Source: Morinoia aosen (taxonomy: Eukaryota > Arthropoda > Malacostraca > Amphipoda > Talitridae). Taken from it: 64,000 bases of DNA. The stretch lies in the NCBI GenBank assembly GCA_030386875.1, contig CM059562.1:70492201-70556200 (forward strand). The letters run 5' to 3'. Within the stretch, counting starts at the first letter, position 1, and each line of letters opens with the position of its first letter. Shown in pieces: positions 9,150 to 23,230 of this stretch. A model generated the notes under the pieces. It made no database searches. It had not been told where the DNA came from and saw nothing but the letters and a program-made list of their open reading frames with translations. A program made the translations under genes and the position numbers.

Positions 9150-9635
9150 AAGTGGTTTCCTTTCTGCAAATTCGAATTATAAATTAAAGTGCCAAGATAT
9201 GCGTCTTAAATTTCATTATTTATTTCGAAAAGTCAATTAATCAAAATTTCTGGAACGTTTCGACCTCCAGGGTCATTATCAATCTGAAAGTAAGTAGAAA
9301 AAACTAATCAAATGTCAAATTTACATCAATCATGGAAGAAGAAAGAAAAAAAAACATTTGATAGGAAAAAGATGAAAAATGTTCAGTATTGAAATTACGT
9401 AAAATTACATTCGCAATTTTAATGCTGAATATTTTTCATTCTTTTCCTTTCATATGTTAGTTTTTTTGCTTACTTCTCCCATGATTGATGCAAATTTGAC
9501 GTTTGAATAGTTTTTTATACATGTTTTCAGGTTGATAATGACCCTGGAGGTCGAGATGTTACAGAAATTTTTATTTATTGACTTTCCTGAACAAATAATG
9601 AGATTTAGAACGTGTTTCTTGGTACTTTTATATAT
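9150..9635. mobile_element. Foldback (long inverted repeat) element inside the 36-bp minisatellite
   Basis: The two halves, about 9165-9400 and 9420-9635, are imperfect reverse complements over some 200 bp. Clear pairs include GACCTCCAGGGTCATTATCA (9262-9281) with TGATAATGACCCTGGAGGTC (9533-9552), TCAATCATGG with CCATGATTGA, and GATGAAAAATGTTCAG with CTGAATATTTTTCATTC. The centre is near 9410. It encodes no protein. Minisatellite units on both sides show that it was inserted into the array. Confidence 0.85.
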
Positions 9636-9695
9636 TATATTGAGTTGACTCTTATATTGAGGCTCAAATGTTGTATTGATTTGGCTTCTATACTG
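9636..9695. repeat. Detached copies of the 36-bp minisatellite
   Basis: ATTATATTGAGTTGACTCTT and ATATTGAGGCTC match the array that ends near 9145. The intervening sequence is the foldback element. Confidence 0.85.
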
Positions 9696-11153
9696 CAACC
9701 TGTTCTGGGACAGTCTTTGGAGTAATTCATTGATTTTTTCCATTTTCCTTCATGACTTTCCTAACTCTCAGTTTTTCTAGGGCTATTTCATACGTTCTCA
9801 CTATCAGACGATGAGAGGTAGCCGGTGGCAGAAGCTTGCTTTTCGGGTGGCCGGATATGCAAAAGATAAAAGACGCGATATGCCTTTGGTCTCTGCTGCG
9901 GAAACTTGTGTAGGTTTCGATACGAGCTCCCTTGGACACCTAATTGTTTCGCTGACCTTTAACCATTTATCTTCTTGAGGTTGGCTTGCTTTGACCCGGT
10001 CGGTTTTCTGCGTCACTGCACTTTCTGTCGCCATGGTTATCGAAATTTTTCTCTCCGCCACTGAAGAGTATACGAATATAAACATATTTTTTTTTTGGTA
10101 AATTATGGGGGGTTTCTTTTTTACAAGTTACCGAAACATTGAATGTGATGACGGAAGAAAAAAAAATTATAAAGCGTTTAATTTGAACGTATTGTGCCTA
10201 GGTTCCGCTTCAACGAAGATTCAGGAAGATGGGAAAAAGTCGAGCCCGCAACCTCACCTTGGTCACGGAGTTAGATCGGCCCTCTAGCTAAATTCGTATT
10301 GGTATTCAGCAATAAGCGTTTCTGTTCGAACAATTTCGCCTGCGCGTCATTAGGAATTTATCTGCGTGTGTTAAGATGAGATGTTTGTTCGACAATGTCA
10401 GAATAGTGATATTCATGAGAAAAGTTGTGGTATAAAGACCATAGAGCAATCAAGTATGAATTCATTGCAATTATTAATTCCGGAAGTAAGATAGTGTAAG
10501 CGAAGGATGTCGAGCATTCAACCTCATATCACTTGTTCAATCTGAGAACGAAGTCTGAGTTTAATTTTGTACAATTTAACGAGATTTCTACCAATAATCC
10601 CGTACTTACCAGTGATGTGCATTGATTTCCGATCATTTGTCAGAATCCAACGGGAATTTTTAGCAATAGCTCGAGCATTTTGGGAATTCAACCCTTGCAT
10701 TTTAATGTACGAGAAAATCCTTTACTGCTCATTTTAATGCGAAGTTTGCCTTTGCGCTGTAATTGTTTATTTCGACGGGTTCTGAGGGTTCACGTTTTGA
10801 TACACATTCTTCTTGATGTTCTGCAAACACACCATCGACCAATAGTCTTTCAGTTGGATTTAGATTTTCTTCAATGCTTGTAAAAATTCATTTGCAAATA
10901 AAATCTCTTGATATTTCACATTTTCATGAGACCAGTCAATGTTCTTATACGCAAATTCCATTACATAACTTACATAACATCTAATAAAGCTGTTGGCCCG
11001 CCATTTAATATTTTGACTAAGCTTTGTTCCCCGCATAGTTTTACAATGAATGTTCACTCAACAGCAGAAGTAAAGCGGAGAAATCTCGGTCCCATGTTAC
11101 TTCAATGATGGCTGATGTTCTTGGAGCTCACATTAGTTTTCTGGTCTCTGCAG

Positions 11154-11441
11154 GTGTGGTTTCAGAACGCGCGGGCCAAGTGGCGGAGACAAGAGAGCAA
11201 CAGAGACCCCAAAGCGCTGCAAGGGTCGGCAGGTGATGGAGGGGTCGAGGCGGCAGCGATGACGTCTGACTCTCAGGGGGCCATTTCTGACGGCGGAGGC
11301 CCGGGAGGCCCTGGGTCAGATTATGGCCCCTCGACGCCCATGTCGAACAGCGGGGCCCAGGCCATGAGTCCCGGTGACGACGAGGAGTCCCAGCAAAGCT
11401 GCGATCAGAACTCAGGCTCCGGCCTGGAAAGCATCTTCTGA
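11154..11441 (+). CDS. Homeobox gene, recognition-helix exon (LIM-homeobox apterous/Lhx2/9-like)
   Basis: This is an internal piece of a homeodomain transcription factor, which would bind DNA in the nucleus. A good acceptor (pyrimidine-rich tract ending CTCTGCAG) places the exon start at 11154 in phase 0. The first codons read VWFQNARAKWRR, which is homeodomain helix 3 from residue 47, with the invariant W48, F49 and N51 and a Q50 that usually favours TAATTA/TAATTG sites. An intron between residues 46 and 47 is common in homeobox genes. A52 with RAKWRR is typical of apterous/Lhx2/9 proteins; paired-class proteins normally have R52. However, the usual Asn after WRR is missing and the text runs WRRQESN, so the family is not certain. 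About 80 further residues are Gly/Ser/Asp-rich, with an acidic DDEESQQ patch, ending GLESIF at a TGA. Residues 1-46 of the homeodomain and any LIM domains must lie upstream of this window. Confidence 0.88.
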   Translation: MWFQNARAKWRRQESNRDPKALQGSAGDGGVEAAAMTSDSQGAISDGGGPGGPGSDYGPSTPMSNSGAQAMSPGDDEESQQSCDQNSGSGLESIF

Positions 11442-11479
11442 CGCCAGCTTAACAGGCCTCGAAGAGCCGATGATAAAAA
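11442..11479 (+). other. Sequence between the TGA and the splice donor: 3'UTR or readthrough coding
   Basis: After the TGA the same frame stays open for 12 codons (RQLNRPRRADDK), then two bases join the first base of the next exon to make a Lys codon. The stop is followed by C, the most permissive context for eukaryotic readthrough. The stop is 38 nt upstream of the exon junction, inside the 50-55 nt limit of the classical nonsense-mediated decay rule. The +1 frame is also open here (SSDASLTGLEEPMIK), but it would reach the donor in the wrong phase for the next exon. Confidence 0.55.
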
Positions 11480-11751
11480 GTGAGTCATTGTGATCGTGAC
11501 TTCCGCTCGTAACAAATACAAAATTATTCAGTAGATAATTATTTTTTCAACTATAACGCAAGATAGGATATTATTTTACCACGATTTTTTATTGTATTAT
11601 TTTTCACATGGTTTTGAGATACTGAGATTGACAGATTTAGCTTGGGTAGTTTTCATGGTTTCATCTTGTTTACTCTTAAACGATTTCTGGAAAATGTACT
11701 AAACGTACAGTATATCGAACATAGTGAAAACGATTCATATGTTCCTCCCAG
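11480..11751 (+). other. Intron between the two homeobox-gene exons
   Basis: The donor AAA|GTGAGT at 11477-11485 has a perfect GTGAGT, and the acceptor is TTCCTCCCAG ending at 11751. The intron is 272 nt, AT-rich, with stops in all + frames near its 5' half. The exon from 11154 to 11479 is 326 nt, giving phase 2, which matches the downstream open frame. Confidence 0.8.
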
Positions 11752-12394
11752 GCCGGGTTCTCGAGGTCTGGGCAAGAGTGCCGACACTGACGATGGTGAC
11801 GACTGTGGCGACGAGACCATCGGGGAGGACACCTACGAAGAGTTCAGCTACGACGAGGACGAAACTAAAGAGGGCATCGTCCAGAAAGTTACATCAGAGA
11901 CTGGATGTTCAGTGGCGAGTGGAGTTGCGGAGAAAATCATTCCCAAAAAAGACTCCCAGAAAAGTGAACCCAAGTCCAGTAAAATGAAACTTGAGTGTAT
12001 ACCAGAAGTTAGTGATGTGAAAATAAAGAAGGAACGGGAGGAGAAAAGCGATAATTTGACTAATTTAGAGCCATGTAAAAATGAGCCCAGTTTCATGAAC
12101 CTGCCGAGCGTTTCGGCTATGACCCTCTCAAGCCCATCCCCAAGGACTGCTGGCTTGGAAACAAATTCCGCAGGAAATCTTTCGTCTCTTAGTCGTCTTA
12201 CCACTTTTGCCTCTTCGTCTTTCAATACATCTCAAGGAACTCACCCATTTCCCTATTCACCCTCGTCTGGGGGGACCATGACTACTTCCTTTCAACCAGG
12301 CAGTGGATTTCACCCTCAGGGCTTCGGCCCGTCACCCAACATGATACCCATCCCACCCAATGTTTACAACCCAGCATGGAGGGAACATATGTGA
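11752..12394 (+). CDS. C-terminal exon of the same homeobox gene (acidic and Ser/Pro-rich tail)
   Basis: A long open frame follows a good acceptor (TTCCTCCCAG at 11742-11751). The exon opens with one base of a split codon, so it needs a phase-2 donor; the donor at 11480 supplies that phase. It encodes 213 residues after the split codon. First comes an acidic stretch (DTDDGDD, then EDTYEEFSYDEDE). Next is a Lys/Glu-rich middle containing IKKE, which fits the SUMO-acceptor consensus. The last part is Ser/Pro/Phe/Gly-rich and ends PPNVYNPAWREHM at a TGA. The composition is like a transcription-factor regulatory tail; I recognise no domain. No ATG-led gene start is evident. The 11642 start sometimes assigned to this frame is a TTG lying in the intron. 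Translation depends on reading past the upstream TGA, on an unseen isoform, or on correcting an indel. Confidence 0.8.
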
Positions 12395-13099
12395 ACCGTG
12401 TGAGGTGGGGTGTGTCTACTGAATACGGTTTAGTGATACACGTGGTGGTCTCTGTGTTTTGTGATGAGAGTGAATGAAAACGTCTTTATTTATTGAACTG
12501 AATGGCAAAACCTGAACTTAATTCTGGAAGGTTTTCGTTTTGCTTAAAAAACTAGGAGGTGTAGATACACTAAAATTATATTTGTAATAATTAATGAATA
12601 TATCAGCTAATTTCTTCAAAACAAGCCGTTTCTAACAAGTGCATTTGCTTCAGATAAAACGCAAAAACTTTACGTGTACGTAAGAAAAAAGAGCGACTTG
12701 GAATTGACTACATTACGCGAAGAAAACAACCCAGCTCCATCCTTTCTTACGCTTCTCTTTTTGTTAAGAAATTTGGAGAAAAATGAGCGTTTCTAACAAA
12801 AAGTCGTGAATAAGAATTATCAAGAAAGCTTTAAAACCTGTGAATGGGGAAGAAAACACGAAAATACCGAGTTTTGTGAATATTTCTTGTGTTTTCATAA
12901 GCATGATGACGTTCAATGCGTATCTCCTACCCATTTTAACTGTGCAGATGTGAAGTGTCATGTTCACGGTGATCGTACAATACGTTAATGTCACGCATAT
13001 GTTCGTAGCAGCGAAAAAGAATATACTCATGCTCAGATCACTGCTGAGACGTACTCGCATGTTGCTCTTATGTTAATGTATATACGCTTTTAAAATGTG

Positions 13100-13105
13100 A
13101 ATAAA
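13100..13105 (+). terminator. Polyadenylation signal AATAAA (proximal)
   Basis: A canonical AATAAA lies about 700 bp after the stop at 12394, followed by TG/GT-rich sequence. Confidence 0.45.
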
Positions 13106-13226
13106 GGATACATGTGCAGTCTTCATACGATTATAAGACGATTTGTAGAGTTTGTACCTAATGTTCTCCTTAAAGTCCTGTACTTTTATATGTCACGTGT
13201 TTTCCCTCATGTGTTATATCCTCTGA

Positions 13227-13232
13227 AATAAA
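13227..13232 (+). terminator. Polyadenylation signal AATAAA (distal)
   Basis: This is a second canonical hexamer about 830 bp after the stop. Either signal could end the transcript. Confidence 0.45.
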
Positions 13233-13641
13233 TTAAAAAGTGCCGACGTTTCTATGTGCTTAAGGTGAAATAAAAATTTAAGCGACGTTTAATTTTCGCC
13301 CACTCATTGCTTTTGAATGGGTTGGGCTTCAGTTGAGAAGTGCTATCACTTTTAGGAGCCTGATAACCGAGTAACGCGACCCAGTCTGTAGCACAGCTTC
13401 TGCATGAGGCAGCTAAAATTGTACGTCTAGCGACGGAAAAGTAAGAAAAGGCAAGTTTATCAACAGAAATATGACACGGGACATGACCTATTTCGTCTTC
13501 GGAAACTTTTATTACTATATATATACCACCTATTGAGCTGCACAGGAGCCTGATGCTGAAGTGTTGAACAGGCATGGGCCGAATTTTGATATCAAATAAA
13601 TTACGTCTTCTCAATCGACGTCGTTGCGGTGAGCGCTGCAG

Positions 13642-13745
13642 ACCAGTTTAACTTTTTCGCCGGGGCATCTGTGGTCTTAGCCGTCCATGTACAGCCTTCC
13701 TCACAGGGTGACTAAAATTTTAGGTGAAACTGCGATAAAGTTAGC
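13642..13745. mobile_element. Degraded relative of the 108-bp MITE at 16460
   Basis: CCAGTTTAACTTTTTCGCCG at 13643 closely matches the MITE's first 25 bases. It continues with a similar TGGTCTTAGCCG block. The right terminal repeat is barely recognisable. Confidence 0.55.
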
Positions 13746-16389
13746 TTGTAAGAACGTTCCGTAATTGTATACTGTTGGAAGATTTTTCGCCACCAACGAA
13801 TGGTTTTGACTACCTTAAGTTATTTGTGAGATTATTAAAAAGATGCAATTTCCCCACATTGAAATTCATTGAAACTGATCGCTTATCCCATACTGAAGCG
13901 TAGAGAAAATGTTTCTATTTTGATCGAAAGTAAACACGGCTTTTACGATTTTTTTTTACATTCACATTATACACTTAGGAAATCATACACAAACGTCACA
14001 TTGCCCTGGGAAATATGTCTGCTATTCAGAGAGTTATAGTATTCTTTATTTTCCATGATCTTGTTACTATGGCCTTGAAGCAGAGGAGCCAATAAACACA
14101 AGAATAACCGCAAAAATAATTGGATGCGTTAATTAGGGAGTTCTGAATGAATTACTTCATTGGTACTTGAGAACACGTTGCTTTGATTTGTCTCTCTTGT
14201 GCTAAGGAGGCTGGCGCCCCCCAGAGGATACTGCTGGGCTACTTTAGCTGTAGATTGGCCTTCAGGACTTCTGTTTTTCGTACCCACTTTGTTTCTTTAA
14301 GTTTTTCTGCCTTCTTCGGTATCTCATGTTTGTCCTCTCTTCTTTTTCCTACTTAACATGCTGTTTCTATGCGTAGAGTATCCTGTGAAGATACGCACCA
14401 TGTGCATTGATTTTTAGTTTTTTATAGACAATTCTGAATGGTACCTTCCCTTCACTGTCTCAAGGTCGTCTTTGTTGTGGCTAAGAAGTCTGAAACTGAA
14501 AAATACAGAGTATATTATTTGAAAACTAACGGCATTCGAAAAAGGTTTTCGTGTCACTATAGTGTATCTACCTTCATTTGTTCAGCTTTATTTTTCGCTA
14601 TGATGACGTTCAGCATTGCATCCATTGGGCACCTCTATAGCGTAAAACACTCGCAGCAATGGAGTAATGACATGGTAAATTTTTGTGATTTTCTGTTTTC
14701 TTCCTCAAATGTTATCTGAACCGTTTTCTCTTCAGTTTTTGTGGTCCGTTTGAATGAAGATGTACGGGAATTGCGTGTGTTGTCACAATAACAGTGAGCG
14801 TACAGCTCCTAAATACTCATTTTATGACTTATAATTTGATGACATATAGGTCAAGAAGGCGAAAAACTTAATCGAAAAATGTAACCTGGATGAAACTGTT
14901 CCTTGTTTTGGAGGCCTCTAATTTTTTGTTTTGGAGGCGTCCAAATATTTCTAATTTGCAACTTGATCATGTTCTTGTGCGTCTGTGTGGAGAGTCGGTC
15001 ATCTCGAAGCAATGGCTAGCGTTGACGATTCAATTTTCAGTTAATGAGGAATTTGAGAACGGCTTTTAAGAAATGGAATTAAGTTTGCTTATAAAAGTTA
15101 CCAAACTGATTGAGAAACAGCAAATAGTTATGGGAAAAAAATATTCCAAATTATCCTTAAATATCACTGAATCTTGGGCTGTTTCTAAATGCAAAAATCC
15201 CGCGGCGTTTTTTGTGGTTATACTAAAGTCATTCATAATAATACTTTATTGAGGAATGAATCTAACGGAGAGCACAATTTTGTGGGTACAAATAAAATCA
15301 CATTTTGCACATCCGATGTTACTTTACTGCTTGTTTGTTACAGGAATGTTGTTAACGCACTAACTCGACTGTTTTTTGCCTCTCCTCTCATTTGTGCGGA
15401 AAATTATTCTGTTAAAAATACAATTAATCGTTTTGGTGAATTGTTATTAATTTTCTTCGAAGTCCATCTACTTTCGATCAACCACACGACACAGCAAAGT
15501 TTATTCAACTTTCCCGTACTTCTTAGTGGAAATAATGTGACTAAGATAAAATATGACTCTTTAAAGTCACAACTGTTGTCAGGTAAATTTTCATTGATTT
15601 CTTGTGTCAACGAACTCGCTTTATATTCGAAAAAATGAGCTGCCAAACCCTTTATTGAACCTTCGATTCATTTGATATGTGTATCGCTAATTTCAATTGG
15701 AGTTGACGGAGGTTCAACAAACGTTACGCTAAAACTACAGGTTGCATTCCTCCGTCTACAACGGGGGCACAGTTCCATAATCATTTCAAGACAAAATTTA
15801 GGCATGACTCTGAAACTACAGTATACTTAGTTGGCTTAAAAATAATCAATACGTGTCATCATTGAATGCTTCACTTCAACGTTTTGATAATTAATGCTGA
15901 AATTCAAAATGTTGTGATACTGTACGAAATATATAATATGTCGAGGTACCAACAAGGCTAAACATCAGCTTCTTTCCGGTTTCTACGTACACGATACCTG
16001 AAAATAACTTCTTACTTCGTTTAACCTTTTAATTTTTCAACGAAATATTTCTTAAGGAGTCTGATCACGCACACGCAGAAGCAGCTATGATTAATAATGT
16101 GACTTCTTTGTAAGAGTCTAAAAATCCAATTTTATATTATTTATGTCTTCCTTTTGTACATACAGCGATTGTCTCAATTTTATGTATGAAACGTCCGTAC
16201 GTTGGTTTTTTGAAGCCAATCAAACTATTGTTATATGCTGTTGTTTTATGAGTAAGTGTTAAGAACATGACTCATCACTTCTGTTGTTTCATTTAAGATG
16301 ATACCTTCCTTCTGCCGCGTGCATCTTCCCGACACGTTATTTCAGAACATTCAAAAAGAAAAGAAATATTGGTGAATGAGCAGGGCGCT
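13746..16389. other. AT-rich noncoding stretch
   Basis: No recognisable gene. A 149-codon open frame at 15189-15638 has random-looking composition. Short inverted words GACGGAGG and CCTCCGTC lie at about 15703 and 15750. Confidence 0.5.
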
Positions 16390-18731: not shown

Positions 18732-19451
18732 GCTCTTGGTCTCTCAAGTCTCATATATAAGTCTGATGCTCTCACACAGGCAGCAGTAGGCACGACAGAC
18801 ACGGCTCTTGGTCTCTCAAGTCTTATATTTGAGTCTGATGCTCTCATACAGGCAGCAGTAGGCACGACAGACACGGCTCTTGGTCTCTCAAGTCTTATAT
18901 TTGAGTCTGATGCTCTCATACAGGCAGCAGTAGGCACGACAGACACGGCTCTTGGTCTTTCAAGTCTTATATTTGAGTCTGATGCTCTCACACAGGCAGC
19001 AGTAGGCACGACAGACACGGCTCTTGGTCTTTCAAGTCTTATATTTGAGTCTGATGCTCTCACACAGGCAGCAGTAGGCACGACAGACACGGCTCTTGGT
19101 CTCTCAAGTCTTATATTTGAGTCTGATGCTCTCATACAGGCAGCAGTAGGCACGACAGACACGGCTCTTGGTCTTTCAAGTCTTATATTTGAGTCTGATG
19201 CTCTCACACAGGCAGCAGTAGGCACGACAGACACGGCTCTTGGTCTCTCAAGTCTTATATTTGAGTCTGATGCTCTCACACAGGCAGCAGTAGGCACGAC
19301 AGACACGGCTCTTGGTCTTTCAAGTCTTATATTTGAGTCTGATGCTCTCACACAGGCAGCAGTAGGCACGACAGACACGGCTCTTGGTCTCTCAAGTCTT
19401 ATATTTGAGTCTGATGCTCTCATACAGGCAGCAGCAGGCACGGTAGACTCT
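18732..19451. repeat. Minisatellite, 72-bp unit, ten copies
   Basis: Ten head-to-tail copies, each starting GCTCTTGGTCT and ending CGACAGACACG. Copies are nearly identical and differ mainly at two positions (CTCTCA/CTTTCA and CATACAGG/CACACAGG). The unit is a multiple of three, so the minus strand has an open frame with a 24-residue repeat. That frame has no other coding evidence. Confidence 0.97.
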
Positions 19452-21084: not shown

Positions 21085-23230
21085 GCATGGAGCTGTGTGA
21101 GTACATGGAGCTGTGTGAGTACATGGAGCTATGTGAGTACATGGAGCTGTGTGAGTACATGGAGCTGTGTGAGTACATGGAGCTGTGTGAGTACATGGAG
21201 CTGTGTGAGTACATGGAGCTGTGTGGAGTACATGGAGCTGTGTGAGTACATGGAGCTGTGTGAGTACATGGAGCTGTGAGAGTACATGGAGCTGTGTGAG
21301 TACATGGAGCTGTGTGAGTACATGGAGCTGTGTGAGTACATGGAGCTGTGTGAGTACATGGAGCTGTGTGAGTACATGGAGCTGTGTGAGTACATGGAGC
21401 TGTGTGAGTACATGGAGCTGTGTGAGTACATGGAGCTGTGTGAGTACATGGAGCTGTGTGAGTACATGGAGCTGTGCGAGTATATGGAGCTGTGTGAGTA
21501 CATGGAGCTGTGTGAGTACATGGAGCTGTGTGAGTACATGGAGCTGTGTGAGTACATGGAGTTGTGTGAGTACATGGAGCTGTGTGAGTACATGGAGCTG
21601 TGTGAGTACATGGAGCTGTGTGAGTACATGGAGCTGTGTGAGTACATGGAGCTGTGTGAGTATACGGAGCTGTGTGAGGGCTGTGTGAGTATATGGAGCT
21701 GTGTGAGTATATTGAGCTGTGTAAGTACATGGAGCTGTGTGAGTACATGGAGCTGTGTGAGTATATGGAGCTGTGTGAGTACATGGAGCTGTGAGAGTAC
21801 ATGGAGCTGTGTGAGTACATGGAGCTGTGTGAGTACATGGAGCTGTGTGGAGTACATGGAGCTGTGTGAGTACATGGAGCTGTGTGAGTACATGGAGCTG
21901 TGTGGAGTACATGGAGCTGTGTGAGTACATGGAGCTGTGTGAGTACATGGAGCTGTGAGAGTACATGGAGCTGTGTGAGTACATGGAGCTGTGTGAGTAC
22001 ATGGAGCTGTGTGAGTACATGGAGCTGTGTGAGTACATGGAGCTGTGTGAGTACATGGAGCTGTGTGAGTACATGGAGCTGTGTGAGTACATGGAGCTGT
22101 GTGAGTACATGGAGCTGTGTGAGTACATGGAGCTGTGCGAGTATATGGAGCTGTGTGAGTACATGGAGCTATGTGAGTACATGGAGCTATGTGAGTACAT
22201 GGAGCTGCGTGAGTACATGGAGTTGTGTGAGTACATGGAGCTGTGTGAGTACATGGAGCTGTGTGAGTACATGGAGCTGTGTGAGTACATGGAGCTGTGT
22301 GAGTACACGGAGCTGTGTGAGTATATGGAGCTGTGTGAGGGCTGTGTGAGTATATGGAGCTGTGTGAGTATATTGAGCTGTGTAAGTACATGGAGCTGTG
22401 TGAGTACATGGAGCTGTGTGAGTATATGGAGCTGTGTGAGTACATGGAGCAGCGTGAGTACATGGAGCTGTGTGAGTACATGGAGCTCTGTGAGTACATG
22501 GAGCTCTGTAAGTACATGGAGCTGTATGAGTACATGGAGCTGTATGAGTACATGTAGCTCTGTGAGTACATGGAGCTGTGTGAGTACATGAAGCTGTGTA
22601 AGTACATGGAGCTGTGTGAGTACATGGAGCTGTGTGAGTACATGGAGCTGTGTGAGTACATGGAGCAGTGTGAGTACATGGAGCTGTTTGAGTACATGGA
22701 GCTGTGTGAGTACATGGAGCTGTGTGAGTACATGGAGCTGTGTGAGTACATGGAGCAGTGTGAGTACATGGAGCTGTGTGAGTACATGGAGCTGTGTGAG
22801 TACATGGAGCTGTGTGAGTACATGGAGCTGTGTGAGTACATGGAGCTGTGTGAGTACATGGAGCTGTGTGAGTACATGGAGCTGTGTGAGTACATGGAGC
22901 TGTGTGAGTACATGGAGCTGTGTGAGTACATGGAGCTGTGTGAGTACATGGAGCTGTGCGAGTACATGGAGCAGTGTGAGTACATGGAGCTGTGTGAGTA
23001 CATGGAGCTGTGTGAGTACATGGAGCTGTGTGAGTACATGGAGCAGTGTGAGTACATGGAGCTGTGTGAGTACATGGAGCTGTGTGAGTACATGGAGCAG
23101 TGTGAGTACATGGAGCTGTGTGAGTACATGGAGCTGTGTGAGTACATGGAGCTGTGTGAGTACATGGAGCAGTGTAAGTACATGGAGCTGTGTGAGTACA
23201 TGGAGCTGTGTGAGTGCACGAAGCTGTGTA
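21085..23230. repeat. Large minisatellite, 18-bp unit, about 119 copies
   Basis: About 2.15 kb of the unit GGAGCTGTGTGAGTACAT. Variants such as GTATATGG, GTGTGGAGTAC, GTGAGAGTAC, GAGCAG and GAGGGCTGTGTGAG mark sub-blocks. A block of about 660 bp occurs twice, around 21230-21760 and 21900-22430. Because 18 is a multiple of three, all long open frames here on both strands are products of the repeat. The array begins and ends abruptly, with a diverged last unit near 23215. Confidence 0.98.

Follow-up and report, generated by a model that had tools for sequence, protein, structure and literature searches.

Candidate stop codon readthrough in an apterous/Lhx2/9-class gene of Morinoia aosen, with a possible RNA stimulator assembled by splicing

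Gene structure at the locus

The window analysed here is the whole stretch of 64,000 nucleotides (C7:70492201-70556200) taken from the 1.99-Gb genome of the amphipod Morinoia aosen. The gene whose 3' end lies in the window is, judged by its sequence, of the apterous/Lhx2/9 LIM-homeobox class and one member of a tandem pair. More specifically, it has two LIM domains and an Lhx2/9-like homeodomain, the joined homeodomain finding its best PDB match in that of Lhx9 (E 8.2e-29), and it resembles apterous/Lhx2/9 factors both in its two LIM exons and in the splitting of the homeodomain before VWFQNARAKWRR, a segment that corresponds to homeodomain profile positions 46-57. A second LIM-homeobox set, the paralog, is found on the same strand between 71 and 105 kb 3' of the window exon, and the window gene is therefore taken as one of a tandem apterous pair. 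The label apterous B is provisional for the window gene; apterous A and B are told apart by diagnostic homeodomain residues (PMC8861169).

The exon that completes the homeodomain (acceptor ...TCTGCAG/GTG, score 6.84) reads VWFQNARAKWRR...GLESIF and then meets a TGA, after which the frame stays open up to a donor AAA/GTGAGT at 11480 (score 5.0); the acceptor of the next exon, TTCCTCCCAG/G at 11752 (score 6.4), requires phase 2. The earlier note had described here a 326-nt exon of phase 2 holding TGA-C at 11439, 12 further codons and a GTGAGT donor, with an upstream boundary of phase 0 and a downstream 213-codon frame in need of phase 2. All of these elements were found where it had placed them, the first part of the homeodomain ending at phase 0 and the 11752 acceptor fitting exactly. 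Under the 50-nt rule a stop codon close to the last junction escapes junction-dependent decay, and the short form, whose stop lies 38 nt 5' of the junction, would thus be spared such decay.

Table 1. Features of the apterous-class gene and its paralog. Positions refer to the window unless another coordinate is given; in the hairpin rows the U of UGA is +1.
Feature	Position	Strand	Remarks
LIM exons	C7:70469173 and 70478976	same as window exon	upstream of window exon
Homeodomain part 1	C7:70488685-70488822	same as window exon	upstream; ends ...SKRVLQ at phase 0
Homeodomain part 2	exon at 11154		begins VWFQNARAKWRR
Exon	11154..11479	+	homeodomain end, short-form C-terminus, TGA and 12 further codons; length 326 nt; entered in phase 0, left in phase 2
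TGA stop, next base C (UGA-C)	11439..11441	+	38 nt left to exon end
12 sense codons RQLNRPRRADDK between TGA and donor	11442..11477	+	+3.4 bits, weak coding evidence
Hairpin 5' arm	11453..11468	+	+15 to +30
272-nt intron GTGAGT...TTCCTCCCAG	11480..11751	+	splits second ORF; separates hairpin arms before splicing
Extension exon	11752..12394	+	213 codons and stop TGA 12392-12394; C-terminal end NMIPIPPNVYNPAWREHM
Hairpin 3' arm	11756..11770	+	+46 to +60 in spliced mRNA
Candidate poly(A) signal	13100..13105	+	first AATAAA/ATTAAA 3' of extension stop
Paralog LIM exons	70574098 and 70594303	same as window exon	
Paralog homeodomain exons	70608009 and L014:4359		

Several repeated or self-complementary stretches accompany the gene. 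The intron 5' of the exon at 11154 holds a large inverted repeat (window 9176-9638; 178-nt arms, 83%, 107-nt spacer) that looks like a foldback element. Further downstream there are 72-bp repeat units at 18732-19442 and a minisatellite at 21086-23229, with about 120 copies of an 18-bp unit and long open frames on both strands. The acceptor region of the extension exon (11736-11759) has a complement in the final codons of that exon (12368-12391; 83% across 24 nt, -30.3 kcal/mol) and a second strong pairing partner near 12256; of 150 random stretches, 1 had an equally strong partner in the next 1 kb. Such pairing could mask the acceptor in the pre-mRNA.

Coding potential of the extension

Coding signal was scored with a codon model trained on 14 homeobox-containing open frames (14 of 15 regions, 7054 codons, the first 20 codons of each omitted). 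One region, L022, was excluded from training because tandem repeats adjoin its frame, and another, L029, was excluded from the control stops. An in-frame stop cost 6 bits in a first scoring and nothing in a second.

The extension scores as coding in the frame that continues from the homeodomain, in line with the earlier note, to which this frame looked truly coding. Frame 0 reached 41.8 bits, the best of six frames, or 0.196 bits per codon, as against a span of 0.16-0.43 for the 14 training frames (scores that are not leave-one-out). The other five frames, each with 6 to 13 stops, gave 22.7, 13.1, 10.2, 4.5 and -14.1 bits, a range that belongs to the scoring in which stops cost nothing. Of 20000 shuffles of the extension exon, 6 kept some forward frame open for 211 codons or more. 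Noncoding windows of extension length averaged -0.23 per codon (SD 0.11), and the three that scored as high as the extension or higher, among 2708, all lie in a tandem-repeat region at about 51.7-52.5 kb. When segments were ranked within 11000-13000 of the window, the pre-TGA exon came first with 46.4 bits and the extension second with 45.5; the best in three other scanned stretches of the window, among the top four of each on the + strand, scored 33.9 and lies in a tandem repeat. The model also reacts to GC content, so that, with stops unpenalised, one minus-strand frame of the GC-rich pre-TGA exon matched the true frame (44.6 against 43.0).

The stretch between the TGA and the donor carries a coding signal that is weak and not clearly frame-specific. 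Its 3.4 bits compare with 4.4 for the +2 frame when the 3 stops of that frame count as zero, and 49% of noncoding 12-codon stretches were open, 4.7% of the open ones scoring at least 3.4 bits.

The first part of the extension is acidic and aromatic in composition and the second Ser/Pro-rich. No Pfam family was found in it at E up to 1, and no relatives were confirmed in the viral contigs or genome contigs searched. A non-exhaustive genome search with the extension returned one match; because the genome search missed the homologous exon of the paralog, a single copy is to be read as no near-identical copy, and a near-identical second copy of the exon pair was likewise not found in the assembly by a search that was not exhaustive. 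Folded alone and without an alignment, the extension received a mean AlphaFold pLDDT of 46.3, with no helix of 4 and no strand of 3 residues, a result consistent with a tail that is probably disordered.

RNA structure downstream of the stop codon

A strong hairpin, which the earlier note had not seen, nor its assembly by splicing, follows the UGA in the spliced mRNA after an 11-nt spacer. It has 15 bp, one bulged base and a 15-nt loop that contains the exon junction, and the first 60 nt 3' of the stop fold at a dG of -25.8 kcal/mol. This stability was equalled by 7 of 2000 dinucleotide shuffles and by 13 of 3000 synonymous permutations, and a helix of 15 bp or more turned up in 8 of 4000 shuffles, all p-values being post hoc since the hairpin was found after three folds. 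Among 273 coding windows of the training frames at 50-65% GC, two had a helix of at least 15 bp and three an energy as low. Along the spliced mRNA, 3 of 341 windows had a lower z than the hairpin, and some windows of the homeobox exon have lower energy.

The two arms of the hairpin lie in different exons, so that the structure would form only after splicing. The mean pair probability was 0.93 in the spliced RNA (five flank sizes, lowest pair 0.53) versus 0.026 in the unspliced RNA. It is this anatomy of hairpin and intron that leads to the proposal of a stimulator assembled by splicing.

Other homeobox genes in the genome

An open frame over the 50 codons beyond the stop was present at one of 13 homeobox frame ends, some of which may not be true gene ends. 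This exception is a POU-homeobox gene (L023, G000:C9:24759500-24763500, minus strand) with Pou and homeodomain profiles, which we take to be drifter/vvl-like; its TGA-T is followed by an 88-codon frame scoring 16.8 bits, the other frames giving values between -5.6 and 3.7. Readthrough of this drifter-like gene in the same species is possible on its sequence, and the tail hints that the species may use readthrough.

For the apterous paralog, examined as a contiguous frame, the frame closes 13 codons after its stop, and this counts against readthrough in the window gene. The top coding segments downstream of the paralog score 26.1 bits or less and, at a distance of about 7.6-14.4 kb, have no established connection with it. 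In another homeobox gene, a Hox exon that is presumably Ubx-like (L035, G000:C10:22151000-22153000), the frame runs past the homeodomain with NEQEKVAQSQKMMQQQQQ and without a poly-alanine stretch. Insect Ubx has a poly-alanine stretch after the homeodomain, and its absence here would suit a crustacean.

Comparison with known readthrough systems

The arrangement of a TGA-C with a proximal 3' hairpin is an already published one for readthrough sites, and alphavirus-type readthrough likewise joins UGA-C to a downstream RNA structure. The likeness to the latter is one of architecture only, the alphavirus case being viral and unspliced.

In PMC5100048, TGA, a next-base C and RNA structures within 100 nt 3' are reported as enriched at readthrough stops, such structures occurring in 9% of readthrough candidates but in less than 1% of other transcripts. 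The same study infers that readthrough is abundant in insects and crustacea. FlyBase lists 328 readthrough genes according to PMC4528330. In headcase (hdc) of Drosophila, readthrough is reportedly triggered by RNA structure lying 3' of the stop (PMC5100048, PMC4528330); hdc and the present apterous gene share a 3' RNA structure and differ in gene family.

A close parallel is Drosophila dfr, where readthrough is stimulated by a stem-loop spanning +9 to +59; what counts is how stable this stem-loop is and how far it lies from the stop, not its sequence, and the stop and bases +4 to +9 are also required (PMC13170385). Both dfr and the present gene encode a homeodomain-class transcription factor with a long C-terminal extension that is disordered (here, probably so), and the stem-loop spans are +9 to +59 and +15 to +60 respectively. 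On the other hand, dfr ends in UAG and lacks introns, whereas the present gene has UGA-C and an intron that interrupts its second ORF as well as its hairpin; moreover, the 15-nt loop of the apterous hairpin lies beyond the 3-10 nt loop filter applied in PMC13170385. In the literature searched by titles and abstract openings, no readthrough of apterous or Lhx9 is reported, and the readthrough and stem-loop literature searched by titles and abstract openings reports no stimulator split across an exon-exon junction.

Measured against what is described for readthrough genes, the window gene has an in-frame ORF directly after the stop whose coding signal is strong for 213 codons and weak for 12, the leaky UGA-C context, and a proximal 3' RNA structure, a feature that is frequent and optional. 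Counting against readthrough is the interruption of the second ORF by an exon break after only 12 weakly coding codons; such a break leads PMC5100048 to suspect alternative splicing, except where the segment ahead of it is coding.

Proposed mechanism and alternative explanations

Programmed stop codon readthrough, adding a tail that is probably disordered and aided by a stimulator assembled by splicing, is in our judgement the probable explanation of the locus and the best one. The gene family, the frame, the coding signal, the hairpin and, among the sites and exons scored, the lack of strong splice alternatives were shown by computation; we infer that ribosomes would read through at some rate, that the tail would have a function and that splicing may be required. 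Most ribosomes would stop at the UGA-C after ...GLESIF and release a short factor of LIM1-LIM2-homeodomain structure. A fraction would decode the UGA with a near-cognate tRNA and continue through the 12 codons, the junction and the 213 codons, giving a long form with 226 additional residues plus one inserted at the UGA. The hairpin 11 nt 3' of the UGA is the likely stimulator. The proposed role of the tail, which is acidic with aromatics at first and Ser/Pro-rich later, is in transactivation or interaction. The earlier note had likewise proposed readthrough yielding a short and a long form, a proposal that gains support, at the level of sequence, from the coding frame and the hairpin, and against which the searches for alternative splicing, a near-identical second copy, SECIS and an editing duplex turned up nothing strong. 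A stricter version, in which one intron splits the hairpin and the extension frame so that readthrough would be confined to transcripts from which it has been removed, is offered tentatively, our confidence falling somewhat short of even.

The main rivals are a nonsense allele or assembly error in an ordinary long protein, and an unseen splice form. The former, which we regard as unlikely, supposes that the species or its clade makes an ordinary long Apterous and that the TGA at 11439 is peculiar to one genome. It predicts all of the coding features, TGACG is one CpG transition away from CGACG, and the assembly yielded a single copy of the exon pair, leaving no second allele to compare; it leaves unaccounted for, however, a strong hairpin at the position of a stimulator and the C after the stop. 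A weak further argument against it is that vertebrate LHX2/9 C-termini are similarly hydrophobic and end in ...LF, as the short form does in kind. Readthrough stops are, moreover, common in insects and crustacea in the account of PMC5100048.

The second of these rivals, to which we also assign a low probability, is a splice form that joins 11752 in frame and omits the TGA by using a weak or non-canonical donor within 11154-11438 or another exon. The sites were scored with hand-typed matrices of approximate metazoan frequencies, not fitted to the analysed genome, and on these the sole strong phase-2 donor is 11480 and the sole strong acceptor 11752, the other acceptors in 11300-11751 scoring -0.26 or lower. 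The earlier note was correct that the GT sites at 11233 and 11374 are of phase 1, the former being the strongest before the TGA (3.5), but it left unmentioned that 8 of the 12 GT sites there are of phase 2. These eight would serve the splice form, though all score -0.9 or lower, the best being 11315 at -0.9. Two phase-2 GC sites with A at +3, at 11219 and 11393, could also serve it; both lack G before the junction and were listed unscored.

A scan for bypass exons of phase 0 in and phase 2 out, restricted to the intron between the homeodomain exons and to splice sites scoring above 1, gave three candidates, and three control scans gave 1, 6 and 8 with top totals of -0.5, 11.9 and 15.2. The top candidate, 11039-11232 (acceptor score 1.1, donor score 3.5, 5.4 bits of coding signal, total 10.0), feeds the extension in frame, yet it runs through the homeobox exon in the wrong frame and loses the recognition helix, and its total falls within the controls; it was rejected, as were the other two, whose coding scores are negative. 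No second WFQN-type exon was found in that intron. On the sequence, a strong splice site or exon that avoids the TGA appears to be absent among those scored.

It is very improbable that the extension exon is 3' UTR belonging to the short form, or an independent ORF begun at an internal ATG: six in-frame ATGs are available (the first at 11984), against which stand 213 stop-free codons and a score of 21.7 bits for the 77 codons that precede the first ATG. That score, which none of the other five frames equals although a minus-strand frame with 2 stops comes near it at 17.5, argues mildly against internal initiation. Equally hard to credit is a long form made by A-to-I editing of UGA to UGG or by selenocysteine insertion, either of which would use the identical frame, since the strongest duplex that the stop region can form, with a partner at 13321 (-24.2 kcal/mol), surpasses the first ten control minima (-23.4 to -21.0) but is equalled or exceeded by 9 of 28 control blocks, and 11000-14500 gave no Rfam match of any kind, SECIS included, at E up to 1.

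Significance

On its sequence the gene looks like a fresh instance of an established type of recoding. Apterous acts as a selector in wing patterning and in the specification of dorsal identity, and if programmed readthrough does take place, a second form of this limb- and wing-patterning protein, bearing an activation-type tail, would add a layer of control to a selector gene. A readthrough stimulator built by splicing would join two regulatory steps, and if readthrough is indeed licensed by removal of the intron, the relative amounts of the short and long Apterous forms would depend on splicing and translation together.
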